DNA of 64,000 nt, taken from the NCBI GenBank assembly GCA_021732085.1, contig JAKFVQ010000003.1:1-64000 (forward strand). The letters are read 5' to 3'. The DNA comes from Candidatus Obscuribacterales bacterium. GTDB lineage: Bacteria > Cyanobacteriota > Vampirovibrionia > Obscuribacterales > Obscuribacteraceae. Below, piece by piece: positions 5,715 through 13,608 of this stretch (the first letter of the stretch is position 1; the number at the start of each line of letters is the position of its first letter). A program made the translations under genes and the position numbers. A model generated the notes under the pieces. The model did not search any database. It saw nothing but the letters and a program-made list of their open reading frames with translations, and was not told where the DNA came from.

Positions 5715-6428
5715 CTATTCGCCGGGTCTCAATACCCAAGGGATCTGATGCTTAATACGATCGCGCTCACCTTGATCCGTTAGTTTATCAAAAAGCAGAT
5801 TGGTGAACTTAGAATAGGTGGCTGTCTGATCCGGATCTGCTATTTCTCCGTAGCCTGCGTCGCGCATTGCGTTCCACTGATGTTCACTGGTCTTGGCGAA
5901 TTCTACAAACTTGTCAGCTAGTTCCTTCTGATTCAAATTTGCGCCCTGATCATTGATCCATTTCTCTAAGTCATTGAGAACATCGAGACGATTTTCTGGT
6001 ATATCATTCTCTATTTCTTCTTGCTTCGTTTTTTCAGACTCATTGGTCTTTTCGCCCAGCTTGCCTGCTGCTTCACCTATTCCGGCGCCGGCTGCAGCGG
6101 CTGCTTCTCCGGCTTTCGCCGCGCCTGCACCACCTTTGCCTGCTCCTTCTATCGCCCCATGTGCAGCTTCATGTGCTGCTGTGGTCGAATCGGTTTTGGC
6201 ACCGGTGGATGGATCTAATTCCGCATGTGCTTTTTCATGCATGGCGATGTCGATTGTTGGTAATCCGCCGGGAGGCTTGGTATCAGTTCCCGACTTTGCA
6301 CCACTTACAGTGCTCTCCGAACGCACGTCGTTTAAGGCATGCTCCATCGCGGATTTTCCTACTGCTTCGGCGCCTTCTGCGGCGAACTCTTTCGGTGCAG
6401 CGTTTGATTCCAAGTTTCCGTCAGCCAT
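5715..6428 (-). CDS. Low-complexity Ala/Gly/Glu-rich protein of unknown function
   Basis: Not recognised. The start at 6428 is chosen over a longer frame beginning at 6503 because GGGAGGA lies seven bases before this ATG; the product is then 237 residues. It has no signal peptide or membrane segment. Residues up to about 60 are acidic and Ser/Ala-rich, the middle is an Ala-Gly-Lys block (about 90-130) with His-containing 'AHEAAHG'-like text, and the last 100 residues look like a small helical domain rich in Asp, Glu, Gln and Trp. The His pattern resembles HExxH only loosely and is not taken as a protease site. Codon pattern and the strong ribosome site support a real gene. Confidence 0.6.
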   Translation of the reverse strand: MADGNLESNAAPKEFAAEGAEAVGKSAMEHALNDVRSESTVSGAKSGTDTKPPGGLPTIDIAMHEKAHAELDPSTGAKTDSTTAAHEAAHGAIEGAGKGGAGAAKAGEAAAAAGAGIGEAAGKLGEKTNESEKTKQEEIENDIPENRLDVLNDLEKWINDQGANLNQKELADKFVEFAKTSEHQWNAMRDAGYGEIADPDQTATYSKFTNLLFDKLTDQGERDRIKHQIPWVLRPGE

Positions 6429-6625
6429 GACACGTCCTCCCGATCCATAATCGGATCCCTCGATCTGTAAACCAGATCTCTCCTGTACCGCATTAAATAC
6501 CAAAAGACGCGATGCGAGAACGGGTAATTCGCCCTTCGCTACTGTGGTAATATGCAGCCGCCGTGAAACTCAGGGTTCCGGGCGTTTCAAGTCATACTAG
6601 GAGAATAGACGTGCAAGCTGCGTGC

Positions 6626-7306: not shown

Positions 7307-7390
7307 GACTTACCCCTTGCGTTAGTTTAGAAGCCTCTCACCAAGGCTGAAGCTTGCAGAACGCACCATTATATATGACCTTTAAAAATA

Positions 7391-7429
7391 GAACGAGAGC
7401 AGTTTATTCAGGGTAAACTCCTCTCGTTC
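7391..7429. terminator. Strong hairpin with T-tracts on both sides
   Basis: GAACGAGAG (7391-7399) pairs perfectly with CTCTCGTTC (7421-7429) and AGTTTA (7401-7406) pairs with TAAACT (7414-7419), leaving one C-C mismatch and a seven-base loop. Read on the minus strand the stem is followed by TATTTTTAAA, a good U-tract; on the plus strand by TCTTTCC. No gene is known to end here on either strand, so it may close an unannotated RNA or attenuate transcription. Confidence 0.6.
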
Positions 7430-7740
7430 TTTCCGCTTCAATAAAAGGTTTGCAGGTCTGCGATGGGTTCATTCCATCTACGACTCGGCTACCTGCGGTA
7501 GTCGCGCCTGCTCATCGTATTGCCATTTTTGCCATTTAACTAACGTAGTGGTGCCAACCAACCTAGGAGTCACTCAGGCGGTACCGGATTCGTGGAGCGG
7601 GGCGTATTGATTACGTCTCTTCCAGGAGCGGGACCTGATGATGTCATAGTATGTCCCCGACTTGCCAAACGCATGACACGGATGTGGAATTTTCGTGAAA
7701 TCAGAAATTGCTATGACAACTTCCTGGGTTGCCGCTCCGA

Positions 7741-7746
7741 TATAAT
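7741..7746 (+). promoter_or_regulatory. Candidate -10 box for the DUF5132-like/P-type ATPase pair
   Basis: A perfect TATAAT lies 90 bases before the start codon and immediately before the folded leader. The -35 region is poor (AACTTC at 17-base spacing), so this would be an activator-dependent or weak promoter. Transcription would start near 7752, at the base of the hairpin. Confidence 0.4.
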
Positions 7747-7747
7747 A

Positions 7748-7810
7748 GCGGGCGGAGCACCCAGTTAGTTTTGGGCAAGGCGAAACATTGACGGTGCTTT
7801 GGGCGCCCGT
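7748..7810 (+). promoter_or_regulatory. Structured 5' leader RNA, riboswitch-like
   Basis: The 7-base-pair outer stem is GCGGGCG (7748-7754) with CGCCCGT (7804-7810, one G-T pair). The inner 6-base-pair stem is AGCACC (7756-7761) with GGTGCT (7793-7798), separated from the outer stem by an asymmetric internal loop. The apical part (7762-7792) is G-rich. An AGAGGA ribosome site at about 7824-7829 follows. It does not match a riboswitch class I can name. Confidence 0.45.
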
Positions 7811-7836
7811 AAATACAAAATCCAGAGGATAAATGC

Positions 7837-8139: not shown

Positions 8140-10317
8140 GTGGCTGGCTTGGATTACGAGATTGTGCACAGCCTCCCGGGGCGCATCCGCTTGCGGATGC
8201 CGCGCTTGAGGACTGACGATGTTTTTGCCGAGCGTTTTCAATCCTATTTATATGGATTGTCCGGCATTAGTTCCATTCGCCTCAGTAGGGACTGCGCATC
8301 TTTAACCCTGAACTTTGATGAGGCTTTCTTTTCTCCAGAAGATACGTTCGCGCAGCTCGATGAAAAGGACATCCTCCTTTGTGACTCGCCCTTAGGTAAG
8401 GAGAGTCGGCAGCTCGAGCGCAATGAGATTTACCGCCTTGCTAACGTCTTGGAGGCGCCTCCGAAACTGCAACTCTTTTTGGGCGCTCTCTCGTTTGTTG
8501 CAAGCGCATTTTCATTGCCCGCCGCAATCACTCGCGGCTTGCTTGTTTTATCGAGCATTCCAATATTTGGTCGTGGAATTCGGACCGCTATTGAAGAGCG
8601 TCGCCCACCTGTGGAATTTCTTGATGGGCCGGCGGTGGTGCTACTGGCTTTTGAAGGCGCATTCCTTCCCGCTGCGTTCATGTCGACATTGATTGCATTT
8701 GGTGAATACATTCGCGATGTGGCGGCTTCGCGAAGTGAGGCGATGATAGACGAGCTTTTAAGTTTGTCACGCAGTTCTGCTTGGTTGATTAAGAATGAGC
8801 AGCGTGTCAAAGTCACTGTCGCTAAAGTTCGCGTCGGTGATGAAGTCGTCGTTTATACCGGGGAGAAAGTGCCTGTAACCGGGACTGTCATCAAAGGCAG
8901 CGCGACGATAATCAGATCAGATACCGCCGCGGATTCTCTGCCAATTGAAGTGCAAGCCGGTGATACCATCCAGGCGGAGAGTATTTTGCTGGAAGGGAAA
9001 GTTTATCTGCGTTGCACGGCACAAAGAATGCAGCTTGTAATGGATCGCATTATGGAGCGCGAGAGGCGCCGTTTACTTTATCGCACCCATTATCAGCGAA
9101 GCGCGCTGAAACAAGGATATCGTATAGTTGCACCGATCATGTTTTTTGCCGCGATCGCATTTTTGTTATCGCGAAATATAAATCAGGCATTGAGCATTGT
9201 TTGCTTTGACGTCGTTACTGGGATAAGAATTGCGTTGCCGACCGCCATCCTTTCTTATATGTATGGCGCCGGACAAACAGGTGTCTTGATCAAAACCGGC
9301 GTGGCTCTGGAAACCCTTTCTGAGATTGACGTATTTATATTTGCACGCACGGGTGTAATTACATCCGGCGAATCAGAAGTAATGGAGGTCGTTTCGCTCA
9401 GCGCTTCGGATGACGGAAAATCTCGTGAATTGGCCGATGTGATGAAAAAGGCTGCAGCTGTAGAGTACCGCTACCACCATCCAGCGGCCCGGGCGATTTA
9501 CAGATACGCGAAGCGTCATGATATCGCGATTGTCGAGCGGCAGAATTCACAACTTTATCCCGGTATGGGAGTGGCGGCGGATGTTGATGGGCAACGTATT
9601 ATCGTCGGCAGCCGTCGTTTGATGAAAAGCCAAAATATCTCTGTCGATCGCTCGAAGGAAGATGATAAACGCATAAGAGCACGCGGGGAATCTGTTGCGT
9701 ACGTTTCATGTAATAACGAAGTGATCGGTCTTATCGCTTACAAGGATCGCACCAGACCGGAAGCACATGAGGCACTTGCTGAGCTACGCGCGCTCGGAAT
9801 GAAGGACATTGTTTTGACCTCTGGTGAGGTTGGTGAATCTGTGGACGCTACGGGGAAAGAGATTGGGATTGATAGAGTCTTTGCGCAACTCACTCCTGAA
9901 GAGAAGTCAGATTTGGTGCGCGATTTTCAATTGCGTGGACAGAAGGTCGCAATGGTTGGGGACGACGTATCCGATGCACTAGCGATGGCTCAAAGCGACC
10001 TCTCAATAGCTTTCAATGAAAGTACAGATGTGGCTCAGTATCGCGCAGACATTATTATTACGGATGATGACCTGACTCACTTGCCACGGGCACTGTCAAT
10101 GGCGAAGGACGCTCGTTCTTTCATGAGACAAAATCTCTTGCTGGTGACGATTCCCAATTGGCTCGGTTTGGTGTTGTCGCTAACCAACGTTATTGGTCCA
10201 GCCAAAGCAACTGTGCTCAACAATGGGTCTGTTATTCTTGCGGCGCTAAATGGACTGCGTCCTGTATTTGCATATGGGTCATCGATAAAGAAAAGATCTG
10301 ACGATCTGGATGCTTGA
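8140..10317 (+). CDS. Heavy-metal-type P-type ATPase homologue lacking catalytic motifs
   Basis: A 725-residue membrane protein with the P1B layout: an N-terminal HMA-like domain (1-70, HSLPGRIRLRMP), a membrane block, A domain, further membrane segments, then P and N domains. The key motifs are changed. DKTGT is ARTGV with Ala402 where the phosphorylated Asp should be. The TGES loop is AADS (263-266). The membrane CPC-type motif has no Cys pair (CFDVVTGIR). GDGxND is GDDVSD (607-612). The HP motif (His447-Pro448) and the N-domain GxGVxA and VGS text are kept. The frame is intact. Start is GTG at 8140, three bases after the upstream gene, without a clear ribosome site. It cannot run a normal transport cycle and may be a regulatory or structural pseudoenzyme. 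Confidence 0.9.
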   Translation: MAGLDYEIVHSLPGRIRLRMPRLRTDDVFAERFQSYLYGLSGISSIRLSRDCASLTLNFDEAFFSPEDTFAQLDEKDILLCDSPLGKESRQLERNEIYRLANVLEAPPKLQLFLGALSFVASAFSLPAAITRGLLVLSSIPIFGRGIRTAIEERRPPVEFLDGPAVVLLAFEGAFLPAAFMSTLIAFGEYIRDVAASRSEAMIDELLSLSRSSAWLIKNEQRVKVTVAKVRVGDEVVVYTGEKVPVTGTVIKGSATIIRSDTAADSLPIEVQAGDTIQAESILLEGKVYLRCTAQRMQLVMDRIMERERRRLLYRTHYQRSALKQGYRIVAPIMFFAAIAFLLSRNINQALSIVCFDVVTGIRIALPTAILSYMYGAGQTGVLIKTGVALETLSEIDVFIFARTGVITSGESEVMEVVSLSASDDGKSRELADVMKKAAAVEYRYHHPAARAIYRYAKRHDIAIVERQNSQLYPGMGVAADVDGQRIIVGSRRLMKSQNISVDRSKEDDKRIRARGESVAYVSCNNEVIGLIAYKDRTRPEAHEALAELRALGMKDIVLTSGEVGESVDATGKEIGIDRVFAQLTPEEKSDLVRDFQLRGQKVAMVGDDVSDALAMAQSDLSIAFNESTDVAQYRADIIITDDDLTHLPRALSMAKDARSFMRQNLLLVTIPNWLGLVLSLTNVIGPAKATVLNNGSVILAALNGLRPVFAYGSSIKKRSDDLDA

Positions 10318-10351: not shown

Positions 10352-11212
10352 CTAGCTAGATATGGAGGGATCGTAATAAATGGTCGGCTGCTCATCATTT
10401 GGCTGTGCTTCACTCTGCGGAGCCTTTCCGTTTGTATTTGCACTATCATCTTTGAACTTCTTAGCCTTCGCATCAAACGTTAGCAATACATCTATATAAT
10501 TCGGCGAACCAGGCGGCAGTGCTTCCAGAGGGCTGCTTTCTGCGAGCGCCTTCACCGCAGAGCTGTCGAATGATGCAATGCCTGAGCTCTTCTCGACGAC
10601 GGTTCGTTTGACAGTGCCGTCTTTGTAGACACGAACATAAAGTCTGACTCTGGACTCTGCTTGCTCAGCCGGAGGCGTCCATCGCCGTTTAACGTCTTTC
10701 ACTATTCGTGCAACATAGGGTTCTAAGTGCAGCACTTTGTGTGTTAATTGGACGTCGGAACTATTGTTCGCAAGTCTTGCCTCGAATAAGAGCGCCCTGC
10801 CTAGATTGCTCGGTTGCAAGGCATTTAAGGTAGCAATTGATTCACTTACTTGATTTTGGATTTCATCGCTGTTCTTATCATCCACAGATGGAATAACTGA
10901 AGCAAGTGATCCATCGCTATTCACTGTGACTAAAATAATAGCCTTATCTTTCAACCCCTGAACGGGCTGCCACTGCGATTCTAACTCCTTCTCGAAATAT
11001 CTTGTGTAGAGTTTGATTTGCGAATCGAAAATACTTTTTCTGAGGGATTGCATTTTGTCTGTTTCGATAGCATCCACAGACCAGCAAAATGAAACCGCCA
11101 TCAGAGCAACTAAAAGGATCGAAACTATCATCAAATGGTTGGTACAGATTTGCTGCCACAGCCAGTTCATAGGTCTGGTATGAGTTAGTAGTTTCATATT
11201 CCCCAGGACCAT
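10352..11212 (-). CDS. TonB C-terminal-like membrane-anchored periplasmic protein
   Basis: A 286-residue protein with one membrane anchor (about 27-45) and two energy-transducer-like regions: 70-135, with a TonB-like 'AIILVTVNSDGSL' strand pair, and a clearer TonB/TolA C-terminal-type domain at about 168-255 (YVARIVKDVKRRW, then VRVYKDGTVKRTVVEKSSG). The tail is hydrophilic. TonB-family domains of this kind contact outer-membrane proteins, but ExbB and ExbD are not nearby and the short N-terminal anchor is followed by no Pro-rich spacer, so energy coupling is unproven. Start codons at 11212 and 11197 are both possible; each has only a weak GGGGA nearby. It converges with the ATPase gene. Confidence 0.75.
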   Translation of the reverse strand: MVLGNMKLLTHTRPMNWLWQQICTNHLMIVSILLVALMAVSFCWSVDAIETDKMQSLRKSIFDSQIKLYTRYFEKELESQWQPVQGLKDKAIILVTVNSDGSLASVIPSVDDKNSDEIQNQVSESIATLNALQPSNLGRALLFEARLANNSSDVQLTHKVLHLEPYVARIVKDVKRRWTPPAEQAESRVRLYVRVYKDGTVKRTVVEKSSGIASFDSSAVKALAESSPLEALPPGSPNYIDVLLTFDAKAKKFKDDSANTNGKAPQSEAQPNDEQPTIYYDPSISS

Positions 11213-11577
11213 TCCCCGCTTTCCATCTTCGCGTTCATGGGATTAGTTATACACGCTCTTGAGTGACATTGTGGTGACAGCGCAGGTAGGATAAGTACAA
11301 CCATTTCCAGCAGCCGAGTGTGAATGGCGCCGAGAGGGAGAGTGCGAGTGGGAGCGCACGCAGCCTGCCTGCTTCGAAAAAAGACATATTTGAGAGTGAT
11401 ACCAATGCTGGTGGCGAAACAATAAGCTAAACGTTGTCTAATGTGAACTGGGTTTCATCTGTTGCAATCCGCGAGACCCTTTCGGATACGTGGTTACACC
11501 CCTCATAGTCAAAAATACTTCACACATCCTGACAAGTGATCGCTACAATGACCTTACAGGCAAAGAAGGTCGCACCC
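11213..11577. other. Divergent intergenic region with one REP-like repeat
   Basis: 365 bases between the TonB-like gene and the PHP-domain gene. It holds one copy of the dispersed GGGAGCGC repeat (11349-11376). A weak promoter-like pair, TTGCAA near 11463 and GATACG 17 bases later, could serve the PHP gene. No small ORF or RNA fold stands out. Confidence 0.4.
11349..11376 (+). repeat. REP-like repeat, copy 1
   Basis: TGGGAGCGCACGCAGCCTGC matches the dispersed family seen also at 19830, 30554, 44331 and 60706. Here the inner hairpin is degenerate. Confidence 0.5.
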
Positions 11578-13608
11578 ATGGGCGAAGGGCGCACTAATTA
11601 CACCAGCGCGGAGCTGTTATCGGATTACCAGAATCCGGACGGTGGTCGAGACATGCTTGTTCAGGCAGTGAAAGAACTGCCAAACGCCGCCAAAGAGCTG
11701 GCATACGAAGCCTGGCAGAATCCTGTAGACACAGCTATAAGTGTAGGGAAAACGGTTGGAACAGGCGCAGTCATGGGCGCAGCCCTGGGGTATCTGATTC
11801 CGGGACGCGGAACGGTCGCTGCGATCATCGGTACCGCTTTTACGATTCCAGCTGTAGTTAACACATACAAGCATTTCAACCACGCATATCAGGCGGCGCA
11901 AAACAGCAATGCAGACGTCAATGCTATAGCTAAGGCTTTTGCAAAAGATGCTCTTGTTGAAACAGGAAACTTTGCACTCGGTACAGCCGGCGGTTTGGTC
12001 GGTTCCGAGATCGGACGCGGAATCGCAATGAGCCGAACACCAGTTGGTGAGTTTGGTCAGTCAGTTCAACGATTTGTCTTGAAAGCCGAGAATAAGGCTT
12101 ATGACACCGTATCTTCTATGTTTGCACGCAGTCCACAACTTGCTGCGGAAACAGGCACACCGGCAAGCGGCAGGCTCGAAATAAGGGATCTTGATTCAGC
12201 CGTAAAAAGGAGCGGCGCCGCTAACACACGAGACATAGATCGGATGATGGCAGCTTCGCCAGAAGGACAGCCACCAGCCGGTCCATCTGCAAAAGAAATG
12301 GAAATGGTTTATGGCTCGCTCCACGGGCACTCGGTTTATTCCGATGGCATGGGCAAACCAGCCGAGATTTATGCGAAGGCACGAGAGCAAGGTTTACAGT
12401 TCACAGCAATCACTGACCACAATCACAAGGCAGCGCGCGGCGGCGTTCAACCCGGCGATCCAAGATATCCTGGGCATCAGAAGAACCCAACTGTCGCCGA
12501 CGCTCCGGAAGCATACACGGAGACTATTTGGGCGGCCAACCAGGCAACCAAGCCCGGCGAATTCGTTGGTATTAGTGGCGTGGAGGTGGGCACCATCGGC
12601 AAAGTTGGCAGTACGTCAAAAGGTGGCACCAACCACGTCAATATATTAGAAGTACCAGACTTTTTTGAAAGCGTTCGTTCACCAAAACAAGGATTTGCAC
12701 CGCCGAATGTCATCAAAGTTGCCGATGGCGACATGAAAGCCATAGTCACTCACCTCGATGGAATGAAGGACTCGACCGGTGGTCGTCCAGTTATTCAACT
12801 AAACCACCCACGCTACGGCGCTGACGAAAGCCCGAATTTGGATCCGTCGGTGCGCGGTCGCGATTATGGACAGAAATCATTTAAGAGCCAGAAGGAATGG
12901 CGTGAACGTTTTGGCAAGTACGCATCGCAGATTGAGATTATTAATGGCGACGCTATAAGTCCGAAGAAATCGGCTGTGGAAAGCCGTCACATTCATGCCG
13001 ATGATTTTGCCGGATACATTGATAAGGGACTACATTTAAGTCCGACATTCGGACGCGATTTCCACTATGGCGATCCTGGCGGTACGAATGCTGCAACCGG
13101 CATTCTCGTCAAGCAGCTAGATAAGCCATCCTTGATGGATGCTCTACGTGAGCGCCGCACGATTGCAACAACTAATAAAGAGCTGCTCAGCGGTCGCATG
13201 ACGGCTAACGATCAGCATATGGGGTCTATCCTCGATCAACAAAGGCATCATGATGTAAATGTCAAAGCGCATGTCGGTGGCAAAGTGACACCAGAGGCGA
13301 AATACACTGTCAATTTGTGGGGCGATGCCAAAATCGGCGATAAGAATCTTGCAGAAATCGTACAATCCAAAGTACTTTCTGGAACCGAACTAAAAGCTGC
13401 CGGTAACACAGTCAGCTTTGACACAGTTCAACACACCATCGGCGCAAAGAGCGCATACTTCCTCGAAATCCAAAGACTCGGAGCTGGATCTGCAGTTCCC
13501 GAGCGAATGTGGACCGCCCCAGTTTGGGTCGAACCAGACGTCTCGACAGGCTCTTCATTAGCAATCAACGCGCTAATCGGCCTCGGCGCCACCACATTGC
13601 AGAGATAG
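11578..13608 (+). CDS. PHP-domain phosphoesterase with N-terminal membrane-like region
   Basis: About 676 residues. Residues 1-130 form a Gly/Ala-rich, partly hydrophobic region that may insert in or bind a membrane. From about 247 a PHP domain begins: LHGHSVYSDG with the metal His pair, TDHNHK near 280, and GRDFHYGD near 494, all typical metal ligands of PHP phosphoesterases. The last 120 residues look like a beta-rich add-on. PHP enzymes hydrolyse phosphate esters or nucleotides with a trinuclear metal centre. The ATG at 11578 is preferred because AAGG precedes it by eight bases; GTG 11536 and ATG 11548 lie upstream in frame without a ribosome site. It ends 17 bases before the first histidine kinase frame, suggesting a shared transcript. 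Confidence 0.8.
   Translation: MGEGRTNYTSAELLSDYQNPDGGRDMLVQAVKELPNAAKELAYEAWQNPVDTAISVGKTVGTGAVMGAALGYLIPGRGTVAAIIGTAFTIPAVVNTYKHFNHAYQAAQNSNADVNAIAKAFAKDALVETGNFALGTAGGLVGSEIGRGIAMSRTPVGEFGQSVQRFVLKAENKAYDTVSSMFARSPQLAAETGTPASGRLEIRDLDSAVKRSGAANTRDIDRMMAASPEGQPPAGPSAKEMEMVYGSLHGHSVYSDGMGKPAEIYAKAREQGLQFTAITDHNHKAARGGVQPGDPRYPGHQKNPTVADAPEAYTETIWAANQATKPGEFVGISGVEVGTIGKVGSTSKGGTNHVNILEVPDFFESVRSPKQGFAPPNVIKVADGDMKAIVTHLDGMKDSTGGRPVIQLNHPRYGADESPNLDPSVRGRDYGQKSFKSQKEWRERFGKYASQIEIINGDAISPKKSAVESRHIHADDFAGYIDKGLHLSPTFGRDFHYGDPGGTNAATGILVKQLDKPSLMDALRERRTIATTNKELLSGRMTANDQHMGSILDQQRHHDVNVKAHVGGKVTPEAKYTVNLWGDAKIGDKNLAEIVQSKVLSGTELKAAGNTVSFDTVQHTIGAKSAYFLEIQRLGAGSAVPERMWTAPVWVEPDVSTGSSLAINALIGLGATTLQR

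Follow-up and report, generated by a model that had tools for sequence, protein, structure and literature searches.

P-type ATPases are defined by a phosphorylated aspartate. In a survey of 9,634 P-type ATPases, the DKTGT motif around this residue was intact in 99.77%, and the 22 proteins with an altered motif carried scattered single changes (PMC3896382). These variants resemble the proteins described here in their altered phosphorylation motif. However, they are scattered point changes and possibly errors, whereas the loss reported below is conserved and affects several motifs. The ATP7B variant D1027A (PDB 7xuk) has the same Asp-to-Ala exchange at the same site, made to block phosphorylation; that exchange was engineered, whereas the alanine discussed here is natural and fixed. 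We found no described family or clade of pseudo-P-type ATPases in the literature searched, most subscription papers being outside that search.

A parallel for the gene arrangement is provided by the PacL-Ctp effluxosomes of Mycobacterium tuberculosis (PacL1-CtpC, PacL2-CtpG and PacL3-CtpV), where PacL proteins attach to the metal-binding domains at the N-termini of several P-ATPases and collect these pumps in one platform (PMC9374683, PMC13043812). As in our locus, a small membrane protein with one helix and a charged, Ala/Glu-rich tail is encoded beside a P1B ATPase, but the Ctp proteins are regarded as active pumps. Genes for DUF6110 proteins typically accompany those for P1B6 ATPases (PMC9374683). 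These pairs show the same gene pairing as our locus and likewise lack the metal-binding tail, although the link of our small protein to DUF6110 is a weak match below the cut-off, and the pumps of those pairs have not been described as dead. The active HMA_2-type P1B ATPases of Obscuribacterales and cyanobacteria (TIGR01525-like) are homologous to our protein over the full length and share with it the HMA_2-like N-terminus, TM4 and TM6 motifs without CPC, and the PacL-like partner gene. They keep DKTGT, TGES and GDGxND, whereas the pseudo proteins lack the Asp and carry A402, D609 and a basic linker.

The gene under study lies in the window, by which we mean the whole stretch of 64,000 nucleotides that was analyzed, from a Candidatus Obscuribacterales genome (4.8 Mb, 70% complete). 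The first-pass annotation had described a full-length P-type ATPase in an intact frame. The frame indeed runs from a GTG start to a stop codon at 10315-10317 with no internal stop, and the product matches TIGR01525 (heavy-metal P-type ATPase) with 388.1 bits against a cut-off of 346.25. The features are collected in Table 1.

Table 1. Features of the pseudo-P1B ATPase and of the adjacent small gene (positions refer to the window).
Feature	Position	Strand	Residues and evidence
PacL-like small membrane protein, 99 aa	7837..8136	+	adjacency; DUF5132 22.3 bits, cut-off 25
Pseudo-P1B ATPase, 725 aa, GTG start	8140..10317	+	TIGR01525 match, motifs, tree
HMA_2-like N-terminal metal-associated domain	8158..8334	+	residues 7-65; PF19991 29.8 bits, cut-off 30
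AADS replacing TGES	8926..8937	+	residues 263-266; alignment
Clade-specific basic linker RIMERERRRLLYRT	9046..9087	+	residues 303-316; active relatives ...SAPVYET
TM4 motif VTGIRIALPT	9214..9243	+	residues 359-368; as in active relatives, likewise without CPC
ARTGV replacing DKTGT	9343..9357	+	residues 402-406; direct reading and alignment
HP dipeptide, nucleotide-binding domain, kept	9478..9483	+	residues 447-448; alignment
GMG (GxG), nucleotide-binding domain, kept	9562..9570	+	residues 475-477; alignment
GDDVSD replacing GDGxND	9958..9975	+	residues 607-612; active relatives GDGIND
TM6 NNGS, kept	10219..10230	+	residues 694-697; invariant in 12-sequence alignment

The replacement of DKTGT by ARTGV, claimed in the first-pass annotation, was seen directly and by alignment. 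Residue 402 is Asp in all 43 active relatives compared, and Ala (8/9) or Ser (1/9) in the pseudo sequences, the phosphorylated aspartate thus being gone from all nine. Direct reading and alignment also agree on GDDVSD in place of GDGxND, with a clade-specific Asp at residue 609 in all nine pseudo sequences versus Gly in 43 of 43 active ones. Since the split at residues 402 and 609 is complete between the two groups, the motif loss is not chance. With the phospho-aspartate residue absent, it follows from the sequence that a normal pump cycle would be impossible, a verdict that does not extend to, for example, passive transport.

Two other claims about the motifs stood in part. AADS does replace TGES, but the catalytic glutamate was not simply lost: it is Asp in the window protein, a conservative exchange, and Asp or Glu in eight of the nine pseudo sequences. 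What went is the threonine (T263, gone in 9/9) and the glycine (G264, gone in 8/9). Similarly, the metal-site CPC motif is absent as described, yet its absence does not mark lost function. The CPx (or SPC/TPC) motif in TM4 is missing both from the pseudo-pump and from all 43 active sub-family members compared, which carry a F[STAC]TG[IV]R[IV][AS]xPT-like sequence in its place, and this sequence is retained in the pseudo proteins. Judged by this comparison, the missing CPC motif is ancestral and thus uninformative about loss of function; as a sign of decay it was ruled out.

The HP motif and the N-domain glycines remain in the window protein, as had been noted. Four of the nine sequences (clade A, see below) retain HP, GxG, K589 and the two aspartates of GDGxND, D608 and D612, and may therefore still bind nucleotide and Mg2+; the other five (clade B) have shed more of these residues. 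In the membrane, T360, G361, P367, P672, N673, N695 and G696 are at least 97% invariant across pseudo and active proteins. Residues fixed in the pseudo group include Gln618 (9/9), and in the linker R315 (9/9) is accompanied by R311 (8/9), where active proteins have D/E and A, respectively. The NNGS of TM6 recalls the HN motif of P1B6 ATPases. It reads HNG[ST] in some cyanobacterial relatives, namely the active HMA_2 ATPases of loci L102-L104, and NNGS in Obscuribacterales.

Structure prediction gave a model with a pLDDT of 61.5 from an alignment of four sequences, and active-site geometry was therefore not read from it. Helices in this low-confidence model span residues 108-123, 128-153, 158-171, 175-211, 300-344, 347-379, 645-681 and 687-705, and its best Foldseek matches are P1B pumps, including ATP7B D1027A.

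Our searches covered relatives, all 50 genomes of the family, and draws of 386 genomes across the phylum and 382 across the class. Proteins without the phosphorylated Asp were found in nine genomes, which belong to a single family (Candidatus Obscuribacterales). Clade A comprises the window genome, G002 (81% identity), G003 (55%) and G030 (43%); clade B comprises G006, G009, G016, G019 and G023 (about 35-38%). In a maximum-likelihood tree of 59 proteins, the nine sequences form one group with 100/100 support, adjoining the active HMA_2-type ATPases of Obscuribacterales. Among the remaining homologues, those with motifs read retain DKTGT, in Obscuribacterales and cyanobacteria alike. The loci read from the 386 phylum-wide genomes gave active homologues only, and the class-wide draw of 382 contained no pseudo copy besides those in the same nine genomes. 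Mobile copies were considered and rejected: among the matches listed, plasmid matches reached at most 31% identity, a comparison by identity and not by motif.

The loss is therefore conserved in several genomes, and active DKTGT paralogues are separate from the pseudo group while occurring mostly in the same genomes. Orthologues with intact DKTGT, which would have made the window gene a decaying copy, were not found; the intact relatives are only paralogues on other contigs. The deoC gene adjoins the pseudo gene in all four clade A genomes, so that these copies are positional orthologues rather than scattered errors, and all of these syntenic orthologues are pseudo. For clade B pseudo genes no conserved neighbor was found. 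A sequencing error, which the first-pass annotation had also considered, is excluded by an independent MAG that encodes an 81% identical protein with the same ARTGV and GDDVSD. That the proteins form a pseudoenzyme family is near certain.

Some observations concern the surroundings of the gene. The divergent deoC and PacL-like genes are separated by a 530-base intergenic stretch (7307-7836), in which there was no Rfam match. An Ala/Gly-rich protein of 262 aa (5715-6503, minus strand) has no Pfam match, and its positional counterpart in G002 (locus L035, 8683-9411) shows far weaker conservation than deoC, which separates it from the pseudo-pump operon. Convergent to the pseudo-pump is a gene for a TonB C-terminal-domain protein (10352-11212, minus strand); such a protein, about 52% identical, also adjoins the pseudo-pump in G002 (L035). 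A PHP-domain protein with a long N-terminal region (11536-13608, plus strand) is kept as a neighbor in G002 and partly in G003.

A dN/dS-type comparison of orthologues had been named as a check of the pseudoenzyme reading. Between the pseudo genes of the window and G002, synonymous sites are saturated (pS 0.80), whereas pN is 0.13 and the frame is intact, which amounts to constraint at the protein level. In the same comparison, pN is 0.073 for the active pair and 0.014 for the adjacent deoC. The pseudo gene is thus evolving faster than the active pump, yet it is clearly constrained, and the pseudo clade is under purifying selection. Together with the clade-wide loss, this strong constraint supports the earlier view of a pseudoenzyme kept for a non-catalytic role.

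Constraint is also distributed differently along the two kinds of protein. We compared domain conservation in seven pseudo and 12 active sequences, with near-duplicates removed and domain borders set by hand. The HMA_2 domain (0.42 in pseudo versus 0.31 in active proteins, a difference reached by 0.3% of circular shifts) is the only domain better conserved in pseudo than in active Obscuribacterales proteins. Conservation was lower in the pseudo proteins for the actuator (A) domain (0.41 versus 0.61) and for the second half of the P domain (P2, 0.43 versus 0.64). Constraint has left the A and P domains, which carry catalysis, for HMA_2 at the N-terminus. Such a pattern would be that of a protein in which catalysis was abandoned and a binding function retained or refined. 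In terms of profile scores, the pseudo homologue at locus L009 reaches 31.2 bits with PF19991, the window protein falls just short of the cut-off, and the active paralogue scores 53.6.

The PacL-like gene ends three bases upstream of the pseudo-pump start. It encodes, by eye, one hydrophobic helix followed by a charged, Lys/Glu/Ala-rich helix or tail, and this combination beside a P1B ATPase fits the PacL pattern. The tail, KKSKKKDKEPKTVD, lacks a C-terminal metal-binding motif of the DLHDHDH type, and the protein resembles DUF5132 rather than the DUF1490 of PacL proteins, the DUF5132 score being below the gathering score. The G002 orthologue matches DUF6110 (14.4 bits) and DUF1490 (13.4 bits), both below cut-off; through these weak matches the small protein is linked to the PacL family of M. 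tuberculosis. DUF5132 was not mentioned in PMC9374683, PMC13043812 or the rest of the literature searched. In clade A, a PacL-like gene adjoins the pseudo gene in three genomes out of four, lying upstream in the window genome, G002 and G003, and none was found next to the G030 pseudo gene or the clade B genes. The same family occurs beside active HMA_2 ATPases of Obscuribacterales and cyanobacteria; because few sequences went into the iterated profile, adjacency and not profile E-values is the evidence here.

Variants of this arrangement were seen elsewhere. At an active HMA_2 ATPase locus, a longer PacL-like protein (L047 2422-3132, minus strand; ORF of about 237 codons, extended C-terminal tail) adjoins a typical one (L047 2138-2398). 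On plasmid NZ_CP059451.1 (170525-172600), a match of 27% identity in an Azospirillum P-type ATPase also spans a gene annotated with a YtxH domain, which may be a further pairing of the PacL-like kind.

The window genome also encodes an active paralogue (G000:C8:54291-56405, 40% identity to the pseudo-pump), in an operon with the order DUF5132-like protein, small HMA_2 protein and active ATPase. Pseudo and active genes are in separate operons, and Rfam matches near them gave no riboswitch of note as a clue to the metal. Among the 50 family genomes, eight have both the pseudo and the active HMA_2 gene, one has the pseudo gene only, six the active gene only and 35 neither (Fisher p = 4.4e-5). Because common ancestry adds to this association, the co-occurrence is support rather than proof.

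As an explanation, we suggest, at an even chance of being right, that the protein is a non-pumping member of a PacL-type efflux platform, where it would modulate active pumps. The tree and the substitution pattern support a single origin from an active HMA_2-type metal ATPase before an Obscuribacterales group diversified, followed by retention under selection. The HMA_2 domain would dock the DUF5132/PacL-like membrane protein encoded directly upstream, and in the platform so formed the pseudo-pump would meet the active paralogue, for which a separate PacL-like partner is encoded. With its membrane half intact (and, in clade A, probably with ATP or metal binding still in place), the pseudo-pump might then sense metal and would stabilize, titrate or inhibit active pumps, possibly in response to metal. 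The nine-genome clade, the shift of constraint to HMA_2, the PacL-like neighbor, the co-occurrence and the kept membrane residues are consistent with this proposal. It is weakened by the separate operons, by the part that common ancestry may have in the co-occurrence and by DUF1490 and DUF6110 matches that stay below cut-off.

Some observations that weaken the platform proposal would suit a stand-alone membrane metal sensor (transceptor) independent of any active pump, in which metal at the HMA_2 or membrane site would shift the dead cytoplasmic domains and signal to another partner. Clade B and G030 have no PacL-like neighbor, and in G030, the one genome with the pseudo gene only, no active HMA_2 pump was found (the bin is 66% complete). 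Retention of HMA_2 and the membrane-site residues without catalysis would also be expected of a sensor. We nevertheless consider it unlikely, given the strong co-occurrence with active pumps and the lack of a conserved regulator neighbor: in clade A it is deoC and the PacL-like gene that recur, and in clade B no neighbor does. Some other residual activity, either passive movement of ions across the membrane half or HAD-type chemistry at a different residue such as D608 or D609, appears more improbable still. The TM4, TM5 and TM6 motifs are retained, clade A keeps K589, D608 and D612, and D609 is a new invariant Asp; but relaxation compared with active proteins is strongest in the A and P2 domains, and clade B sheds further P-domain motifs. 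Moreover, in HAD enzymes the motif IV acids serve to bind Mg2+ rather than as nucleophiles. That the gene is a duplicate in decay, or the product of an error in sequencing or assembly, is barely conceivable. The higher pN of the pseudo gene, relative to both the active paralogue and deoC, would fit decay, but nine independent genomes in one clade share clade-specific invariant residues, and the frames are intact at saturated synonymous divergence. Orthologues and constraint thus ruled it out.

Returning to the non-pumping platform member, its broader form is a tentative one, held at somewhat less than even confidence: that a clade-wide, natural pseudo-P-type ATPase has a dedicated, non-catalytic place in a metal efflux platform of the PacL type, as a subunit or a sensor. 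If this is true, P-type pumps, like kinases and proteases, would have yielded regulatory pseudoenzymes. A conserved clade without the aspartate would distinguish the capacities of the fold itself (binding, scaffolding, sensing) from the work of the motor. The PacL-like link would offer a concrete, testable route by which a motorless pump may act as a natural regulator or structural part of a multi-pump platform.
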